The translations under genes were made by a program, and so were the position numbers. From NCBI RefSeq assembly GCF_003144115.1, contig NW_020312004.1:394506-458505 (forward strand): a stretch of DNA of 64,000 nt, read 5' to 3'. Below, piece after piece: positions 1,882-53,046 of this stretch (its first letter is position 1; the number at the start of each line of letters is the position of its first letter). This DNA is from Tilletiopsis washingtonensis (Eukaryota > Basidiomycota > Exobasidiomycetes > Entylomatales). The notes beneath the pieces were generated by a model that saw only the letters and a program-made list of their open reading frames with translations, was not told the DNA's origin and searched no databases.

Positions 1882-3764
1882 ATGGAGAATCCAGACTTCT
1901 TCTACACAGCCAATGCGGCACAAGTGCAAGGGGTCGCGAATGCGGTGGGCTACGCGCTCACCATCGTGTGGTTGCGAGTAATTCTGCCTCGACACAGCAG
2001 ACCCGGCCAGGCGCTGACCCCTTCGCTCGGCCGCAGGGTGAAGCGCGATGCAGTCCGGGCAACTCCGTGGCAGAAGACACTCGTGAGTTCAGCGGGCCGA
2101 GCAGTCGCGTCGGATCTGACCGCTGCCTTCTCGGACTTTCTTCGTCTCAACTCAGGTTGCCGTCATGCTGGTCTCGAACACGATCAACGGCGTGATCCAG
2201 TATGCCATCACTTCGCATTACTTGATGCACCCATCTGAGATAAAGGACATTCCGCCCGTCGCGTGAGACAGTCCGTGATCGAGCACGCTGAAGACCGCTG
2301 ACTTTTTTCAGCAGCTGGAACAAGCCTCTGGGCTCGATCTTGAGCAGCATCTCATGCTTCGCCGCCCAGGTCTACTATGTCCAGCTCGCTGCGTCCTGCT
2401 GCAGCTGGCGAAGGGCCTACAAGCTGTTCGGGCGTGAGCTGCACGCGCACGCATGAGAAACGGTGGACGCCGCATGCTCACAGCATTTACGCGCAGTCGC
2501 CTTCTCCTTCATCACGCTCACGGTGGCCGTCATCTTCCCCTCCTACTACCTCCGGCACCCGCACGCGACGAGGCACAAGGGCTATGTTCTAGTCGGTGCG
2601 CATCCAGACCCACTGGCTGACCTCGCGATTCGTCCTGATGCCGATGCCTTAGCCTTGGCAGTGTACGTCAGCGTAGCAAGGGCCGTACAGGACGTCGTCG
2701 TAGCGTCGTGCATCGGCTATCGCCTGTTAGCCCTCGACAAAGGCCTCGCTAAGGTCAACAGGTCGCACATACTGCGGTCTCTTGCGTGGCAACTAGCTCT
2801 CAGCTTCGAACTCAGTTTCATCACGGCCATGTGGTCGGTCACAACGGTGGCCACCTACTTGGCCTCGCGCGAGGGAAATTTGCATACGATCTTCGTTTTC
2901 GGCGCTGGAAGCGTTCATTTCCTTAGCATGGTGAGTCCGGCGAAACGAGGAGATTCCTTGCGATCGCATGCTGACGGTGCTCCAGATCATCTCTCTCATC
3001 TCGCGCAGGTGCGTTGCGCCGCGCCGTGGCAGTAGTCACTTGCGTGGGGTTCTGGCTGACTTCGCTTCCCTGTCAGCAACCTGCAGCACGCAGTCATCCG
3101 GCCGTCCGAGACCGAGGACCCAAATCGCTGCACAACGGTCGCGGGCGCCGTGTCCAAGTGCTACGGCATCGAGATCGGCGAGCTGCCAGCGTTGGGCGAG
3201 GATCTCGAGCCGGGCATTGTGCGGCCACGGCACCTGCGGCTACCATGCGACGAAATGCGGGCTGCGACAAGAGGAGCGCGCACGGACGGCGCCTACGAGG
3301 ACGGCGTCTTCTCGCCGTGCGAGGTGCTGCCGGAGCTGCGGCGGCTCGGCATCGGGCGCGAGCAGGAGCGTCGCTGGCGCGGCTCGCTGCCCTCGCCGGT
3401 GACGTCGACGGGCGCCCTCGACGACTTGTGCATCTTCGAGGGGCGCGACATGGGCCGGTCCACCGGCTGCCGGCGCTGCATGCGCTCGGCGACGGTCACG
3501 GAGCGGCCGGCGCCGGGCATGATCTTCTTGCCGGGCACGACGCTCGTCGACAGCATCGACATGCGTGCGGCCAAGAGCGCGCTGAGCATCTCGCCGTTTG
3601 CCTACATGGGCGACCCCAAGTCGCCGCTGTCCGATGCGACCGAGCCTGCACCGGCATCCGACGACACGCCAGCGCTCGCCAGCCTCTTCGCCAGCGAGCC
3701 GGGCCCAAGTGTGCGGCGGCCGCGCTGGGCCTTCTTCCGCCTGCCGTCGGGCGGCGGCAAGTGA
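1882..3764 (+). CDS. DUF6534-like seven-helix membrane protein
   Basis: Eight exons: 1882-1970, 2037-2082, 2156-2262, 2312-2433, 2497-2595, 2653-2930, 2986-3008, 3077-3764 (483 aa). The spliced protein has about seven hydrophobic helices in residues 1-262, including segments beginning VAVMLVSNTING and LAFSFITLTVAV. A later segment around DVVVASCIGYRLL, then a basic loop and another helix pair, resembles the DUF6534-type integral membrane proteins that are very common in basidiomycetes. The remaining 220 or so residues form a hydrophilic, probably cytoplasmic tail. The family's biochemical role is unknown. Intron 1 has a weak donor (GTTGCG), but only this choice keeps the frame; the intron at 2596-2652 is itself a multiple of three. 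The gene converges on the NSRP1 gene with 95 bp between stops. Family assignment rests on topology and local similarity recalled from memory. Confidence 0.72.
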
Positions 3765-30401: not shown

Positions 30402-31863
30402 CTACTTCTTCGCAGCGTCGTCCTTCATGCCCTTCTGCACCCACTTCTTTGCGTCTTCGGCCTTCTTGTTGATCTCGTCAGCGTACTTGGCCTCAAAGTC
30501 GCTCTCTAAGAGCTTGGTCAGGAACCTGCCGGTTGAGAGCACGCAATCGGTCGATGACGGCGGCGATGCGGCTGTGAGCTTCGTCAGTGCGCGGCAGAAG
30601 AGGCAGCAGGAATACGCACGAGATGCCAAGGCCATTGGGGTCGTGCGGCACGTCCTGGAAGGAGAGGCGAGCTTAGCCGGGAGAGGCGGAGAGGTGCGGC
30701 AGCCAACTCACGCTGCCCTTGCGCACGGCGGGGCGCTCCCAGTTGCGCAGAATGTAGTTGCGCACGTTGGGGCCCACGTCGGAGTGCGGCACGCCGGCCC
30801 ACTGCGAGGGAATGTCGTGTCAGCGGACGTGCAGAGATCGAACGGCAGCGTCCAAGGCTCTCTCTCTCTCTTCGCCCGTCCCGTCATTCATCGCTTCATC
30901 TTCGGCCTGGCCCTGTTTACTCACGGCGTGCAGGTGCAACCAGGGGTAGGCGTTGCAGTCGGCAATACTGTACTTGCCCTTGCCCTCGCCCACAAGCCAG
31001 TCGCGGCCCTCGAGGTGCTTCTCGAGCACGCCGTAGAGGCGCTTCGTCTCGTTGATGTAGCGGTCCTTGCCGTACTGGATCTGCTCGGGCGCGTAGCGCA
31101 CGAACTGGGTGGATTGTGAGCAGAGTAGGGGTGACAGGGCAGAGGGACTCACGTGGTTGGCCTGGCGTGAGCAAGCAGCTGAGAGGTAAGCATCAAGCGC
31201 ATCGAGCGAGGCGTCTCAACTCATCTTGCATAGGCTAGGCAGAGGGGTCAGCAGGGGTCCGACGCAAAGACAGCCGCAGCACTCACGCCGACACCGCCGT
31301 GCACCCAGACTGGCAGAGAGCACACATCAGCCGCCGCACTACCTCCTCTCTCCCTTTCCGCTCACAGATCCACTGCAGCGCCTGGCTGCGCAGCTTCTCG
31401 CCATTCGGCTCGTCGCTGCCCCAGCTGAACTTGTGCTCCGGGTCGTACTTCTTCTCGAGCCACAGCAGGATGGCGGCCGTCTCGAAGACGGAGTGGTCGT
31501 GGTTGGGGTCGTAGATTGCGGGAATGCGGCCTGCGCGGAGTGTCAGCACAGCGACAGATGCAGCAGCTGGCGGACACGCACCGTTGGGCGAGTGCTTCAG
31601 GAACGTGGAGGACGGTGTCAGCGCATGGCATCTCGCTGGCTAGCCGCACGCTACTCATCACTCCTCCTTCTGCTCGTTCTTGCTGAAGTCGATGGCGTAC
31701 ACCTCGTACTCGAAGTCGGGGTATGCCGCCTTCAGCTCCTCGAGGAAGATGCTGACCTTCTTGCCGTCTGCGGGGCGTGCGGACGTGAGCATCGAGCGCC
31801 GAAGCTCGCGAGTCCGCCGTGCTCACTAGGCGTGCCGACGGTGTAGAGCGTGATGGGCTTCAT
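30402..31863 (-). CDS. Ure2-like glutathione S-transferase with two AT-AC introns
   Basis: Eleven exons: 31863-31827, 31767-31659, 31604-31582, 31530-31366, 31309-31287, 31234-31225, 31166-31153, 31104-30925, 30801-30712, 30654-30620, 30525-30402 (269 aa). The thioredoxin-fold half has [38 protein letters not shown] and [14 protein letters not shown]. The helical half has [44 protein letters not shown] and WERPAVRKG. These are the family marks of fungal Ure2p-type transferases, which conjugate glutathione to electrophiles or reduce peroxides and disulfides. Introns 2 and 6 must be spliced AT-AC to restore EEWFLK and MQGQAN; the other eight are GT-AG. One exon is only 10 nt and one 14 nt. Exon 11 was placed by frame and by the acidic-basic tail; an alternative acceptor inside intron 10 is possible. 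Confidence 0.9.
31167..31224 (-). other. AT-AC intron 6 of the glutathione transferase
   Basis: 58 nt, begins ATGAGT and ends GCTCAC. Splicing joins CCTATGCAAG to GCCAGGCC and gives P-M-Q-G-Q-A-N-H-F, a hallmark of the family. The nearest GT donor (GTTGAG) with the nearest AG acceptor loses the frame and the Gly-Gln pair. Confidence 0.82.
31605..31658 (-). other. AT-AC intron 2 of the glutathione transferase
   Basis: 54 nt, begins ATGAGT and ends CTCCAC. A CTGAC branch-like motif stands about 13 nt before the end. Splicing here joins TG to G, giving the conserved Trp of KEEWFLK. With a GT donor three bases upstream, the coding frame fails at the canonical acceptor (CTGAAG). Confidence 0.8.
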
Positions 31864-48844: not shown

Positions 48845-49171
48845 ATGGATTCGCAGCCGAGCCGCCGCCTGCCACAGCGCTCGGCGTATGTGCCGCCGCA
48901 TCTTCGCAACAAGGCGCCGCCCGAGCCTGCACCGGCGCCGGAGCCAGCACTGCCGCCGAAGCCGTCGCGCTGGGCCCAGCTGGTGCCAGGTGCGGCGGAG
49001 GAGGAGGCAGACGACGGCGAGGACGACCAGCCGCAGGCGTTTGCGCTGCTGCCCTTCGCTGCCTACGACTCGTACTTCGAGCCGCCGGCACCGACGACGC
49101 CCAGGTTGCCGCGGCCTGAGAGTGTGAAGCCGATCTACGTGCCGCCGCATTTGCGCAATCTGCCCGAGTGA
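48845..49171 (+). CDS. Small protein with two YVPPHLRN motifs
   Basis: Single exon, 108 aa. The protein begins MDSQPSRRLPQRSA and has YVPPHLRN at residues 15-22 and again at 98-105, three residues before the stop. In between lie PKPSRWAQL, an acidic stretch and FALLPFAAYDSYFEPP. YVPPHLR/YIPPHLR is the conserved N-terminal motif of Ded1/DDX3 helicases, reported as an eIF4E-contacting element in DDX3 (YIPPHLR, of the YxxxxL type). A small soluble protein carrying it at both ends could therefore be a translation-initiation binding partner, but that is inference; I do not recognise the family. No helicase domain is present and none follows downstream. The ATG follows a short pyrimidine-rich leader, and codon use matches the neighbours. 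Confidence 0.75.
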   Translation: MDSQPSRRLPQRSAYVPPHLRNKAPPEPAPAPEPALPPKPSRWAQLVPGAAEEEADDGEDDQPQAFALLPFAAYDSYFEPPAPTTPRLPRPESVKPIYVPPHLRNLPE

Positions 49172-49533
49172 GTCTGAAGCATGCTGAGGGCTGCATGTAT
49201 GCTGGCGCCCAGGGTGCATGCGGCGCTGTCTGCGCACGCGGCGAGTCGAGTGGAGGCGACGCGCGCGACGTGCGCCGGCCGCTGAGCTGACATGCGCGTG
49301 GAGAAGCACACGCGCGGCCCAGGAGGCTCGGCGTCTTGGGCCGCATCAGCTCCTTCCTTCCCACCACCTCTCCGTCCGGACCCTCCTGGCTGCTGTTTCT
49401 GTTCTTATACGCCTCGCACCACTGACGCTCGCCTTGTAGCGAGCACGCCGCACGCTCTCTCGACGCCGCCGCTCCTTCCTTCTCGCCACACTCCTTCTGC
49501 ACCTCTACGCCACCCGACGCAGACGACGACGAC
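49172..49533 (+). promoter_or_regulatory. Intergenic region / SQS1 promoter
   Basis: 362 bp between two tandem genes. The last 100 bp before the SQS1 start are pyrimidine-rich (CT and ACTC runs), typical of fungal leaders. Nothing else seen. Confidence 0.5.
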
Positions 49534-52500
49534 ATGGCCCGCGGCGGCCCACGAGGCCGCGGCCGCGGCCGTGGCGGCTACGGCGCCGGCTTCGACGCCT
49601 TTCCCGGCGCCGGCCGCACGCTCGACTCGCCCGACGGCGCCTTCCCGCCGCGCGGCGGCTATCGTGGCGGGCGTGGCGGCGGGCGCGGGCGTGGCACGGC
49701 GCTTGCCATGCGCGGCCAGAACGCAGTGGGCTTCGACTACGCCTCGCTGAGCCGGCCACGCGGGCCGCCGCCGCTCGAGGGGCCCGAGGGTCTGCAGCCG
49801 GCGCAGCAGGCGCCCGACAGCGACGGCGACGTCGTCATCACGCCGCGTCGCGGCTACGTCCACGTGCACCGCCCGCAGCACGAGCGCCCCGTCGAGCGTG
49901 CCTACGACCCCTCGGCGCCCGGCGCGTCGCGGCATGCGCTGCATGGTGCTGATCTGGCGGGCATGCTGCCGCCGACTGGGCCCAAGGCGATGCAGCGTTC
50001 GGGCGGCCACTACGTGCCTGCCGGCGGCACCTCGCGTCGCGGCGGACGAGGTGGCGCCGCTCCCGTCTTTCCACAGTTCAACGTGCCGCAGCGTGCGTAT
50101 CGGCCCAGCGAGGACGTCGAAGCGCAGATGCTCGCCGGCCTTGGCCTCTCGCGCGCCGGTGTGCGGCAGTTCCGCGCTGGCGACCCAGCTGCAGCGCGAA
50201 ACCGACCGATGCTGCAGCCCGTGGCGTTCGTGGCCAGCACCGGCCTCGACAAGCAGCGCGAGGGCGAGGGCCTGCAGGAGGCGAGTGCCGAGGCGCTGGC
50301 GCAGGGCAAGTCCGGTCGTGGCCTCGGCTTTGCCGATCCCGCCGCACCAGCACAGCCGCCGCTGCCGGAGAGCAAGCCGCCGATGCAGATCATCGAGCTC
50401 GGCTCGACGGACGACGAGGACGACGACATGGCCGCGCTGCTCGCTGCCTACCCTGACACACGAGAGCTCGAGGCGCACGAGGAGAGCATCGTGCATGATC
50501 CGCTCGTCTCGGAGCTGCCAGAGTTCGCACACGCCGCCGCTGTGGCCGAACCGTCGCAGGTTGAGTCGGACGACGAGGAGGACGTCGTGCTCGTGACGCA
50601 CACCAGCATGTCGTCGGCTCCGTCAGGGCCGATGGAGGACGACGCGTACGACTCGGAGGAGGACCGGCAGCTCGAGGCTGTCATTGCCGCTGGCGAGGCC
50701 GCTGGCCTGTCTGCCAGCATGAATGGCGCAACTTCTCACGCGCCGATCGAGGTCGACCTGACGGCCGATGACGAGCTTCCCGAGCCGGAGGCCGAGCCGA
50801 CGTTCTACATCGACACCGAGGCGTCCGAGCCGATGCAGTTCGAGCAGTCAGTCGCCGAGGCTGCAGCACCGGCACTGGGCGACCCAGTGGCCCCGGCGCC
50901 GCGCTCCGCCGAGGTAGAGATCGATTACTCCTCGGACGACGCGCCCAACATGACGCAGCGCCAGCCACGCGGGGCGGGCAAGAAGGCGCGCAACTCGGCC
51001 AAGAAGGCCCGGCGGCGCCAGAAAGGCAAGGACGGCCAACTGCGTGGCTTCGAGGAGCCGCCGCAGCCGCGTGAGGGTGACAGCGACCTCGAGTGGGGCA
51101 GCGACGGGCCGCCCAAGCGCAAGGGCGCGAACGGTGCAGGCGGCGACGCTGTGGCCGAGGAGCTGCGGCGTGGCCTCACACTCGGCGCGTCTGGCGCAGC
51201 GTCTGCGAGCAGCTCCAAGGCCAAGCAGCAGCAGGCAATCCTGGACGATCTGGCAGAGCTGGCGGCCAACGACGTGCGTGCACGCAAGTCGGCCGACGAC
51301 GACGAAGACTCGGACCTCGATCGCGAGACGGAGCTCGACGGCCTGCTGCGCTTCATGAACAGCATGGACGGCCAGCGCGGCGGGCGCCAGATGACGCTCG
51401 ACGACATTGCCATCGAGGAGCGCATGGCGTCCGAGGACGAGTGGATGACTGAGGAAAGCGGCGACGAGGACGCAACCGAGATCGTCATCGAGGAGCAGAC
51501 GACGTCCGTCCGCATCGCCGTGGAGCAGGACGAGGAGACGGAGGAGCAGATGCTTGCCATCGAAGAGCAGATCATCCTTGACAGCGACAGCGACGACAGC
51601 TCCGAGGACAGCGACAGCGACGACGACATGGACGAGCTGGACCTTGTCATGCTGTCGCGCGGCCGCAAGGGTAAGGGCAAGAAGGCCGAGCTCCTCAGCG
51701 ACAGTGACAGCGACAGCGACTCTGACGAGGTGAGTCCGTTGCCGAGCGCTGTGGGCGCTGCCGTGCTGATCATTCCCACAGGACTCTGACTCGGACGACT
51801 CGGATGACGACGATGACCTGCCGAAGGGCTTCTCCTGGGCCGACCGCGACGAGGACTTCATCGCCAAGCTCGACGTGCGTCTCACTGTATTGGCTTGACC
51901 CTTGCTTTGACTGCTGACCACCCGCTCGCAGCGCTACGCACTGGAGCACGACGACGTGCTCAAGGGCCGCGACCGGAAGGCTCGGAATAAAATCTTCCGC
52001 GCCATCGAGCGCGGCGAGTTCGACGACTTTGAGGAGCTCACGCGCGGCGCGATCTCGTTCGACATGGATCTCGACAGCAAGCCTGTCAAGGGTGCGTTGC
52101 CTCTCGATCTGCTGCCAGTGCAGCATGCTGACACGCGCCATTCAGGCGGCCACGCAGGGCGGAAGAAGTGGGACGACGGCAGCACGTGGGCCGAGAACCT
52201 GCAGGGCCAGTGGGAGAAGGACCGCGCCACCAAGGCTGCCAACAAGCGCAAGCGGGCCGCCGAGCGGGCCGCCGCCGCTGAGAACCCGTTCCACAACACG
52301 CACAAGAAGGGCACCAAGAAGGCGCAGAAGAAGGCTGCGCGTGCCGAGCGGCGCGGCGAGCGCAACGGCGCTGCCTTTGGCTTCGACGACGCGCCGCAGG
52401 CCGCCACGCGCGGCTTCGGCGGGGTTGGTGGCCCGGCCTCGGGCGAGTCGGTGCTCATGCTGCACCACGCCGTCAATCTGCACGAGCTCGACCTGCAGAT

Positions 52501-53046
52501 CCAGCACTTCCTGCGCGACCCGGCGCACACGACGCTCTCGCTGGCGCCGATGGACAAGCGGGCGCGTGCGCAGGTGCACATGCTCGCCGCCGCCTACTCG
52601 CTGACGAGCAAGAGCAAGGGCGACGGCGCCAAGCGCTTCCCCACGCTCGTCAAGAACTCGCGCAGCGGCCAGAACGTCAATGTCCACCGCGTGCGCGCCG
52701 TGCTGCAGGGCCGCGACGTCGGCTTCGGCAAGGGCGCGCCGCGCCGGGACAAGAAGGGCGGCAAGGGCAAGTCTGGCGGCGCCGTGTCTGCCGCTGGCGC
52801 CGGCGTGGCGCGGAATCAGGAGGGCGCCGAGGTCGGCTACGGCGCTGAGAAGATCAGCGAGGACAACATCGGCCACAAGGTGAGTGCGCCTGCCATGGAG
52901 GACCACCGGCATGCAGCTGACACTCCCCTGCGCAGCTGCTCACCATGATGGGCTGGAAGGAGGGCTCCGGCGTGGGCCACACGCCCGGCTCGGCCTCGGC
53001 CGTCGGCGCGACGATCAAGATCAGCAAGGGCGGCCTCGGCTTCTGA
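49534..53046 (+). CDS. SQS1: R3H and G-patch protein Sqs1
   Basis: Five exons: 49534-51729, 51782-51874, 51932-52091, 52146-52879, 52936-53046 (1097 aa). The head is Arg/Gly-rich ([15 protein letters not shown]). Long acidic, Ser/Asp-rich stretches follow, including SD repeats near residues 695-740, then a conserved block FDDFEELTRGAISFDMDLD. An R3H domain lies near 895-985 (LHELDLQIQHFLRD; RAQVHMLAAAY) and a G-patch at the C-terminus (NIGHKLLTMMGWKEGSGVGH; SKGGLGF). This is the Sqs1/Pfa1 plan. Yeast Sqs1 binds and stimulates the DEAH helicase Prp43 through its G-patch and works in splicing and ribosome maturation. The G-patch is interrupted by the last intron. Four introns, all GT-AG, 51-57 nt. 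Confidence 0.9.

Follow-up and report, generated by a model that had tools for sequence, protein, structure and literature searches.

The gene of a Ure2/YfcG-like glutathione transferase in Tilletiopsis washingtonensis carries two introns, numbers 2 and 6, that are predicted to have AT as their first and AC as their last two bases. The gene lies within a 64-kb stretch of DNA, called the window below, which was analysed over its whole length. Both are likely genuine AT-AC introns that are removed by the major (U2-type) spliceosome and that arose through paired substitutions at their ends. U2-type AT-AC introns are known, but fungi have few AT-AC introns of whatever type, with an annotated mean of 0.019% (PMC7072748, Table 1). 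As U2-type AT-AC introns the two would form a pair of a rare but known kind, an assignment that is well supported.

Exon-intron layout of the transferase gene

Removal of ten introns, eight GT-AG and two AT-AC, leaves a complete open reading frame and an intact protein of 269 residues (Table 1). The protein has the Pfam domains GST_N (5.6e-11) and GST_C (5.8e-06). In a search of the PDB its top match was 4f0b_A ("thiol transferase", E 1.2e-51); further glutathione transferases, YfcG and Ure2 among them, ranked below it. By these domains, and by homology to the structures of Ure2p and YfcG, the product is a Ure2/YfcG-like glutathione transferase. The protein of entry 4f0b is presumably fungal. 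One search for relatives of the transferase in viral contigs found none.

Intron 6 lies exactly where it had been placed by the original prediction, with the boundaries CAAG/ATGAGT...GCTCAC/GCCAGG, and the 10-nt exon described beside it is real. The conserved segment GPMQGQAN requires this exon. The four introns that had been said to crowd within 210 bp take up somewhat more space: introns 4-7 cover 261 bp (31365-31105, minus strand) and introns 5-7 cover 182 bp. The exons separating introns 4-7 are 23, 10 and 14 nt long. Of the 86 internal exons in all gene models of the window, four of the seven shortest belong to this gene. The gene is mis-annotated when gene finding is restricted to GT-AG and GC-AG introns; the transferase is then given 228 residues instead of 269.

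Table 1. Positions of the transferase gene and of its features within the window
Feature	Position	Strand	Description
Ure2/YfcG-like glutathione transferase gene	30402..31863	minus	Complete from start to stop; 11 exons, 10 introns, 269 aa
Intron 2, AT-AC (predicted)	31605..31658	minus	54 nt, phase 2; ATGAGT...CTGAC...CTCCAC
Intron 5, GT-AG	31235..31286	minus	52 nt; top homology score, tied with a one-base shift
10-nt exon CCTATGCAAG	31225..31234	minus	Between introns 5 and 6; P-M-Q and the first base of G
Intron 6, AT-AC (predicted)	31167..31224	minus	58 nt, phase 1; ATGAGT...CTTAC...CTCAC
Alternative AT-AG form of intron 6	31179..31224	minus	46 nt; 12 nt (4 residues) left over
14-nt exon	31153..31166	minus	Between introns 6 and 7; remainder of G, then Q-A-N-H
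Intron 7, GT-AG	31105..31152	minus	48 nt; top homology score, tied with shifted parses

Placement of the AT-AC introns by homology

The limits of the introns were found by a test that is blind to splice signals. All single-interval removals that left the gene in frame and free of stop codons were scored against a protein profile of 25 intron-free bacterial relatives. For intron 6 the AT-AC interval was strictly the best of 340 parses, without ties, and this result was unchanged with a second, corrected profile. For intron 2 the AT-AC interval was strictly the best of 2,067 parses, again without ties, and of 1,125 parses when the corrected profile was used over a narrower range. The best single GT/GC-AG alternative loses 16.3 bits at intron 6 and 27.8 bits at intron 2 (15.6 and 27.3 bits, respectively, with the corrected profile).

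The eight GT-AG introns of the same gene served as a control. The top score fell on four of them (on intron 1 alone, and on introns 3, 5 and 7 in ties with shifted parses), while introns 4 and 8 ranked third, 0.4 and 1.0 bit under the best parse, and intron 9 ranked twelfth, 1.4 bits under. Intron 10 failed, with a rank of 1,390; it is outside the coverage of the profile, since the profile match ends at residue 226. Seven of the eight canonical introns were thus located with an error of at most a few bases or 1.4 bits, so that homology can be trusted in the region of introns 2 and 6.

Removal of intron 6 joins the residues G-P-M-Q-G-Q-A-N-H-F, restoring a conserved segment as had been proposed from the sequence. 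All 25 bacterial relatives have GPM[MQ]GQ[AS]NVF at this junction. The peptide played no part in fetching them, and none of the fetching peptides spans the junction. For intron 2 the profile is biased: one of the peptides used to fetch the relatives, QKEEWFLK, extends across the junction of this intron, and all 25 relatives contain it. The listed PDB alignments (four chains, three of them near-identical) were found without this bias, and they cross both junctions without a gap. The four chains have GPMQGQAN at the junction of intron 6.

The interval set by homology opens with the hexamer ATGAGT and has CAC as its last three bases at both places. Because homology alone sets the intervals, this agreement is more than chance. 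Intron 2 is thus present with the termini that had been ascribed to it, and the observation of two AT-AC introns in one gene is confirmed, their splicing itself being predicted.

It might be supposed that only canonical introns are used and that the protein departs from its family in these places, as some chains of GC-AG and GT-AG introns do stay in frame. However, among 90,152 chains that stay in frame, contain no stop codon and put up to three canonical introns in the place of introns 5-7, the smallest loss was 14.5 bits. For introns 2-3, with up to two canonical introns, the smallest loss among 12,722 such chains was 27.8 bits. The replacement sites, moreover, are unlike the donors of the window, and an explanation by canonical introns alone is hardly plausible. 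It is also very improbable that the true introns are GT-AG and that their ends were altered by errors of sequencing or assembly or by decay of the gene. This would take four independent errors, one at each of the terminal positions, in a gene that is intact and conserved in every other respect. Nor does the codon usage of the gene suggest decay, being typical, with a GC3 of 0.926 and the top codon score among 20 genes in a codon model that was seeded with this gene.

Splice signals and the proposed mechanism

Apart from the first and the last base, both AT-AC introns are ordinary for the window. Positions +3 to +6 of both donors are GAGT, likewise in 45 of the 97 GT-AG introns, and the exon position -1 is G in both, as it is in 56 of the 97. 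The branch site of intron 2 is CTGAC, at 13 nt from the end, and that of intron 6 is CTTAC, at 20 nt from the end. In the 81 of 97 GT-AG introns that have a matching site the median distance is 14 nt (10-90% range 11-22). The lengths of 54 and 58 nt are unexceptional, 83 of the 97 GT-AG introns being no longer than 80 nt.

The AT-AC termini would also be expected of U12-dependent introns, which are removed by the minor spliceosome. However, the U12 donor RTATCCTT is absent, and the donors ATGAGTTGA and ATGAGTAGC match ATATCCTTT at only 3/9 and 2/9 positions. The consensus of the U12-type branch site is TTCCTTAAC. Intron 6 matches it at 6/9 positions and intron 2 at 5/9, within the range of the GT-AG introns of the window, of which 24 of 97 reach 6/9 or more. 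A search of the 64-kb window against Rfam gave no match at the gathering score. In favour of a minor spliceosome are reports of U12-type snRNA genes from one basidiomycete, Cutaneotrichosporon oleaginosum (PMC7072748), and of a single U4atac from Phakopsora (PMC2846911). On the other side, a survey of more than 3,000 genomes, in its account of the Ascomycota and Basidiomycota, records no convincing minor introns in these groups (PMC10639083), in agreement with removal by the U2-type spliceosome. Dependence on U12 is highly implausible.

In the mechanism that we propose, each of the two introns was most likely at first an ordinary GTGAGT...CAG intron and would have undergone two base changes, of the G at +1 to A and of the last base from G to C. 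This ancestral state and the order of the mutations are reconstructions. Both introns retain the donor bases G at -1 and GAGT from +3 to +6 as well as a CTNAY branch site, so that binding by U1, U6 and U2 should still be possible. During the second splicing step a contact of A(+1) with C(last) would replace the usual G-G contact. The first and last bases of an intron touch, according to Parker and Siliciano as cited in PMC6726248. In yeast, which has no U12 spliceosome, AT-AC is second only to GT-AG in efficiency, as described in the same paper.

Removal of AT-AC introns by the U2-type spliceosome of a fungus that lacks U12 is seen in yeast with the SUT635 protointron, an alternative RPL30 junction and a mutated standard intron (PMC6726248), which introns 2 and 6 would resemble. 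In contrast to yeast, whose standard introns are described as never normally using AT-AC (PMC6726248), here a conserved protein needs two such introns. Human SCN4A intron 21 is an AT-AC intron that depends on U2 (PMC2831892). Introns 2 and 6 are like this intron and its kin in the vertebrate sodium channel genes in having a U2-type donor with G at +5. However, the sodium channel introns were proposed to have come from U12-type AT-AC ancestors (PMC2831892), whereas introns 2 and 6 resemble the ordinary short introns of the window. The splicing of the sodium channel introns is U2-dependent, while AT-AC splicing of introns 2 and 6 is predicted from sequence.

Intron 6 contains, past its likely branch site and 12 nt ahead of its terminal AC, an AG that is in frame; this counts against the proposed mechanism. 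The A at +1 would fit a terminal C and not a terminal G, and for this reason the nearer AG may be skipped. Alternatively, intron 6 might really end at this AG, at least in part of the transcripts, giving a protein with four extra residues (Table 1). This AT-AG form scores 199.6 bits against 212.9 bits, a loss of 13.3 bits in a segment that is conserved in 25/25 relatives. Furthermore, intron 2 has no AG between its branch site and its end and would still need an AC. In the predicted fold of intron 6 the upstream AG is paired with a probability of 0.97, in a fold that is no stabler than those of shuffled sequences (z 0.43). Taken together, the AT-AG form is improbable. If the AT-AC ends of introns 2 and 6 are used as we propose, the two would be a natural pair for testing whether an A at +1 selects the final C.

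For the AG that intron 6 would skip, the fold predicts pairing with positions +4 to +11 of the intron. Strongly paired AGs (at least 0.9) occur in 6 of the 11 GT-AG introns of up to 130 nt that have an AG after the branch site. As the fold is not unusual and these GT-AG introns are alike in this respect, a role of RNA structure in the skipping of the AG was rejected and the structure is at most a side note.

The spread of an intron type had been offered as one possible origin of the pair. Copying of one AT-AC intron to the second site would account for the identical donor hexamers and for the identical last three bases. The interiors of the two introns, however, share only a 7-nt match, which ranks at the 61st percentile when 4,005 intron pairs of up to 80 nt per intron are compared, and their lengths and phases differ. 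Copying is therefore unsupported and scarcely credible. As the interiors are dissimilar, introns 2 and 6 are read as independent, in keeping with the earlier view that one gene has two independent AT-AC introns whose signals are U2-like.

AT-AC introns in the window and in other fungi

With the window itself as the training set, a simple gene finder predicted 20 genes with 97 GT-AG, 5 GC-AG and 2 AT-AC introns, 104 in total. A candidate at 34320-34271 was dropped before this count. The earlier estimate of roughly 86 GT-AG introns elsewhere in the window agrees with the 89 that were found outside the transferase gene, in addition to the 5 GC-AG introns. The introns of the window are short and have a GCTGAC branch site. 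With the gene content and the closest PDB protein, they point to a GC-rich fungal genome, probably that of a basidiomycete. The predicted GC-AG share of 5/104 (4.8%) is above the fungal mean of 1.0% (PMC7072748, Table 1); it was obtained with an ab initio model, and some of these introns have poor donors.

The gene finder was run with each of the 256 pairs of terminal dinucleotides. AT-AC improved the gene models most, with a gain of 37.6 that includes the third intron, at 34320-34271, taken as spurious. There were near ties with AT-TC (31.0), AC-GT (30.9) and AT-CT (29.8), which use one, one and two of the two places, respectively, and three introns each. This test alone thus fails to single out AC, a point against the proposed mechanism, and because of the near ties the conclusion rests on homology. 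With the stricter and the looser prior the gains were 37.6 and 58.6 for AT-AC, 2.4 and 11.8 for AT-AG, and 0.0 and 6.9 for GT-AC. Generally relaxed recognition by the U2 spliceosome, another of the explanations first put forward, is not supported inside the window. The gains of AT-AG and GT-AC are small, and the donors of 84 of the 97 GT-AG introns conform to GTG[AC]G[TC], a count that is partly circular because the gene finder favours such donors.

At the looser prior, with AT-AC priced as GT-AG, nine AT-AC introns were used, including introns 2 and 6. The seven others were judged by inspection, and none is credible. Five AT-AC candidates have donors unlike those of the window (ATGCGA, ATCAGA, ATGCAT, ATGGGC and ATCAGC). 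The candidate at 13440-13399, with the donor ATGAGC, falls within coding sequence rich in alanine and proline, and the gene finder left it out under the stricter prior. The candidate at 44739-44686, with the donor ATGCGT, would remove the stop codon of a MIF4G-like gene; homology is undecided here, as a PDB search with the last 221 residues of that gene gave nothing useful. The intron at 34320-34271, which was used at the stricter prior, was rejected.

Two AT-AC introns among 104 (95% interval 0.2-6.8%) greatly exceed the fungal annotated mean. At that mean the probability of finding at least two is 1.9e-4, which also weighs against the proposed mechanism. EST-based counts from some further species that lack U12 introns are higher than that mean; in the rust fungus Phakopsora pachyrhizi, 2 of 573 introns are AT-AC, near 0.35% (PMC2846911, Table 2). 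The probability of at least two of 104 is 0.05 at the Phakopsora rate and 4e-4 at the Chlamydomonas rate. Given the value of 0.05, no special rate of AT-AC introns is required. Introns 2 and 6 are like the "Other AT-AC" introns of Phakopsora pachyrhizi (2 beside 560-561 GT-AG and 10 GC-AG), which also come from a basidiomycete and were not scored as U12-type (PMC2846911); these are known from table counts only, and some may be alignment artefacts. Two random introns of the 104 would share a gene 6% of the time, so that the sharing of one gene is only mildly unexpected. The original interpretation as a whole is partly supported.

Two of 104 could signal a lineage that is rich in AT-AC introns. 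In such a lineage U2-type AT-AC introns would be a class at the level of percent, with a component (U1, U6, Prp8 or similar) that tolerates an A at +1 better. This is compatible with the mechanism proposed above, to which it adds a cause. It is favoured by the comparison of 2/104, with its interval of 0.2-6.8%, to the mean of 0.019% (PMC7072748), and species averages hide outliers such as Meyerozyma guilliermondii, for which GC-AG and AT-AC together are put at about 6.67% (PMC7072748, section 3.1). However, in the 19 other predicted genes of the window the gene finder added a single AT-AC intron under the stricter prior and seven under the looser one, none of them credible. The AT-AG and GT-AC intermediates gained little, and the Phakopsora pachyrhizi rate (PMC2846911) gives a probability of 0.05. 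A lineage of this kind is possible, though rather unlikely. It is doubtful, too, that AU-AC has become an accepted percent-level class, probably by a change in U1, U6 or Prp8, in which the paired substitutions drift freely.

Should the genome hold many more such introns, it would belong to a lineage in which the rule for the +1 and last bases has been loosened in one specific direction. Such a lineage, if real, would put the contact of the first intron base with the last to a natural test. No report of an AT-AC gene of this kind in basidiomycetes was found by title or abstract in the literature covered, from which most subscription journals are absent.

Five further predicted proteins of the window were compared with Pfam. 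Three belong to families (MIF4G-like, NAD-glutamate dehydrogenase and glycosyl hydrolase 63) and two have no match. The gene at 1882-3764 (plus strand) is predicted to encode a protein of 451 residues that has several hydrophobic stretches and no Pfam match. The predicted gene at 48845-53046 (plus strand) has exons of 1 nt and 14 nt, and the shorter of the two was probably created by the gene finder as an artefact.
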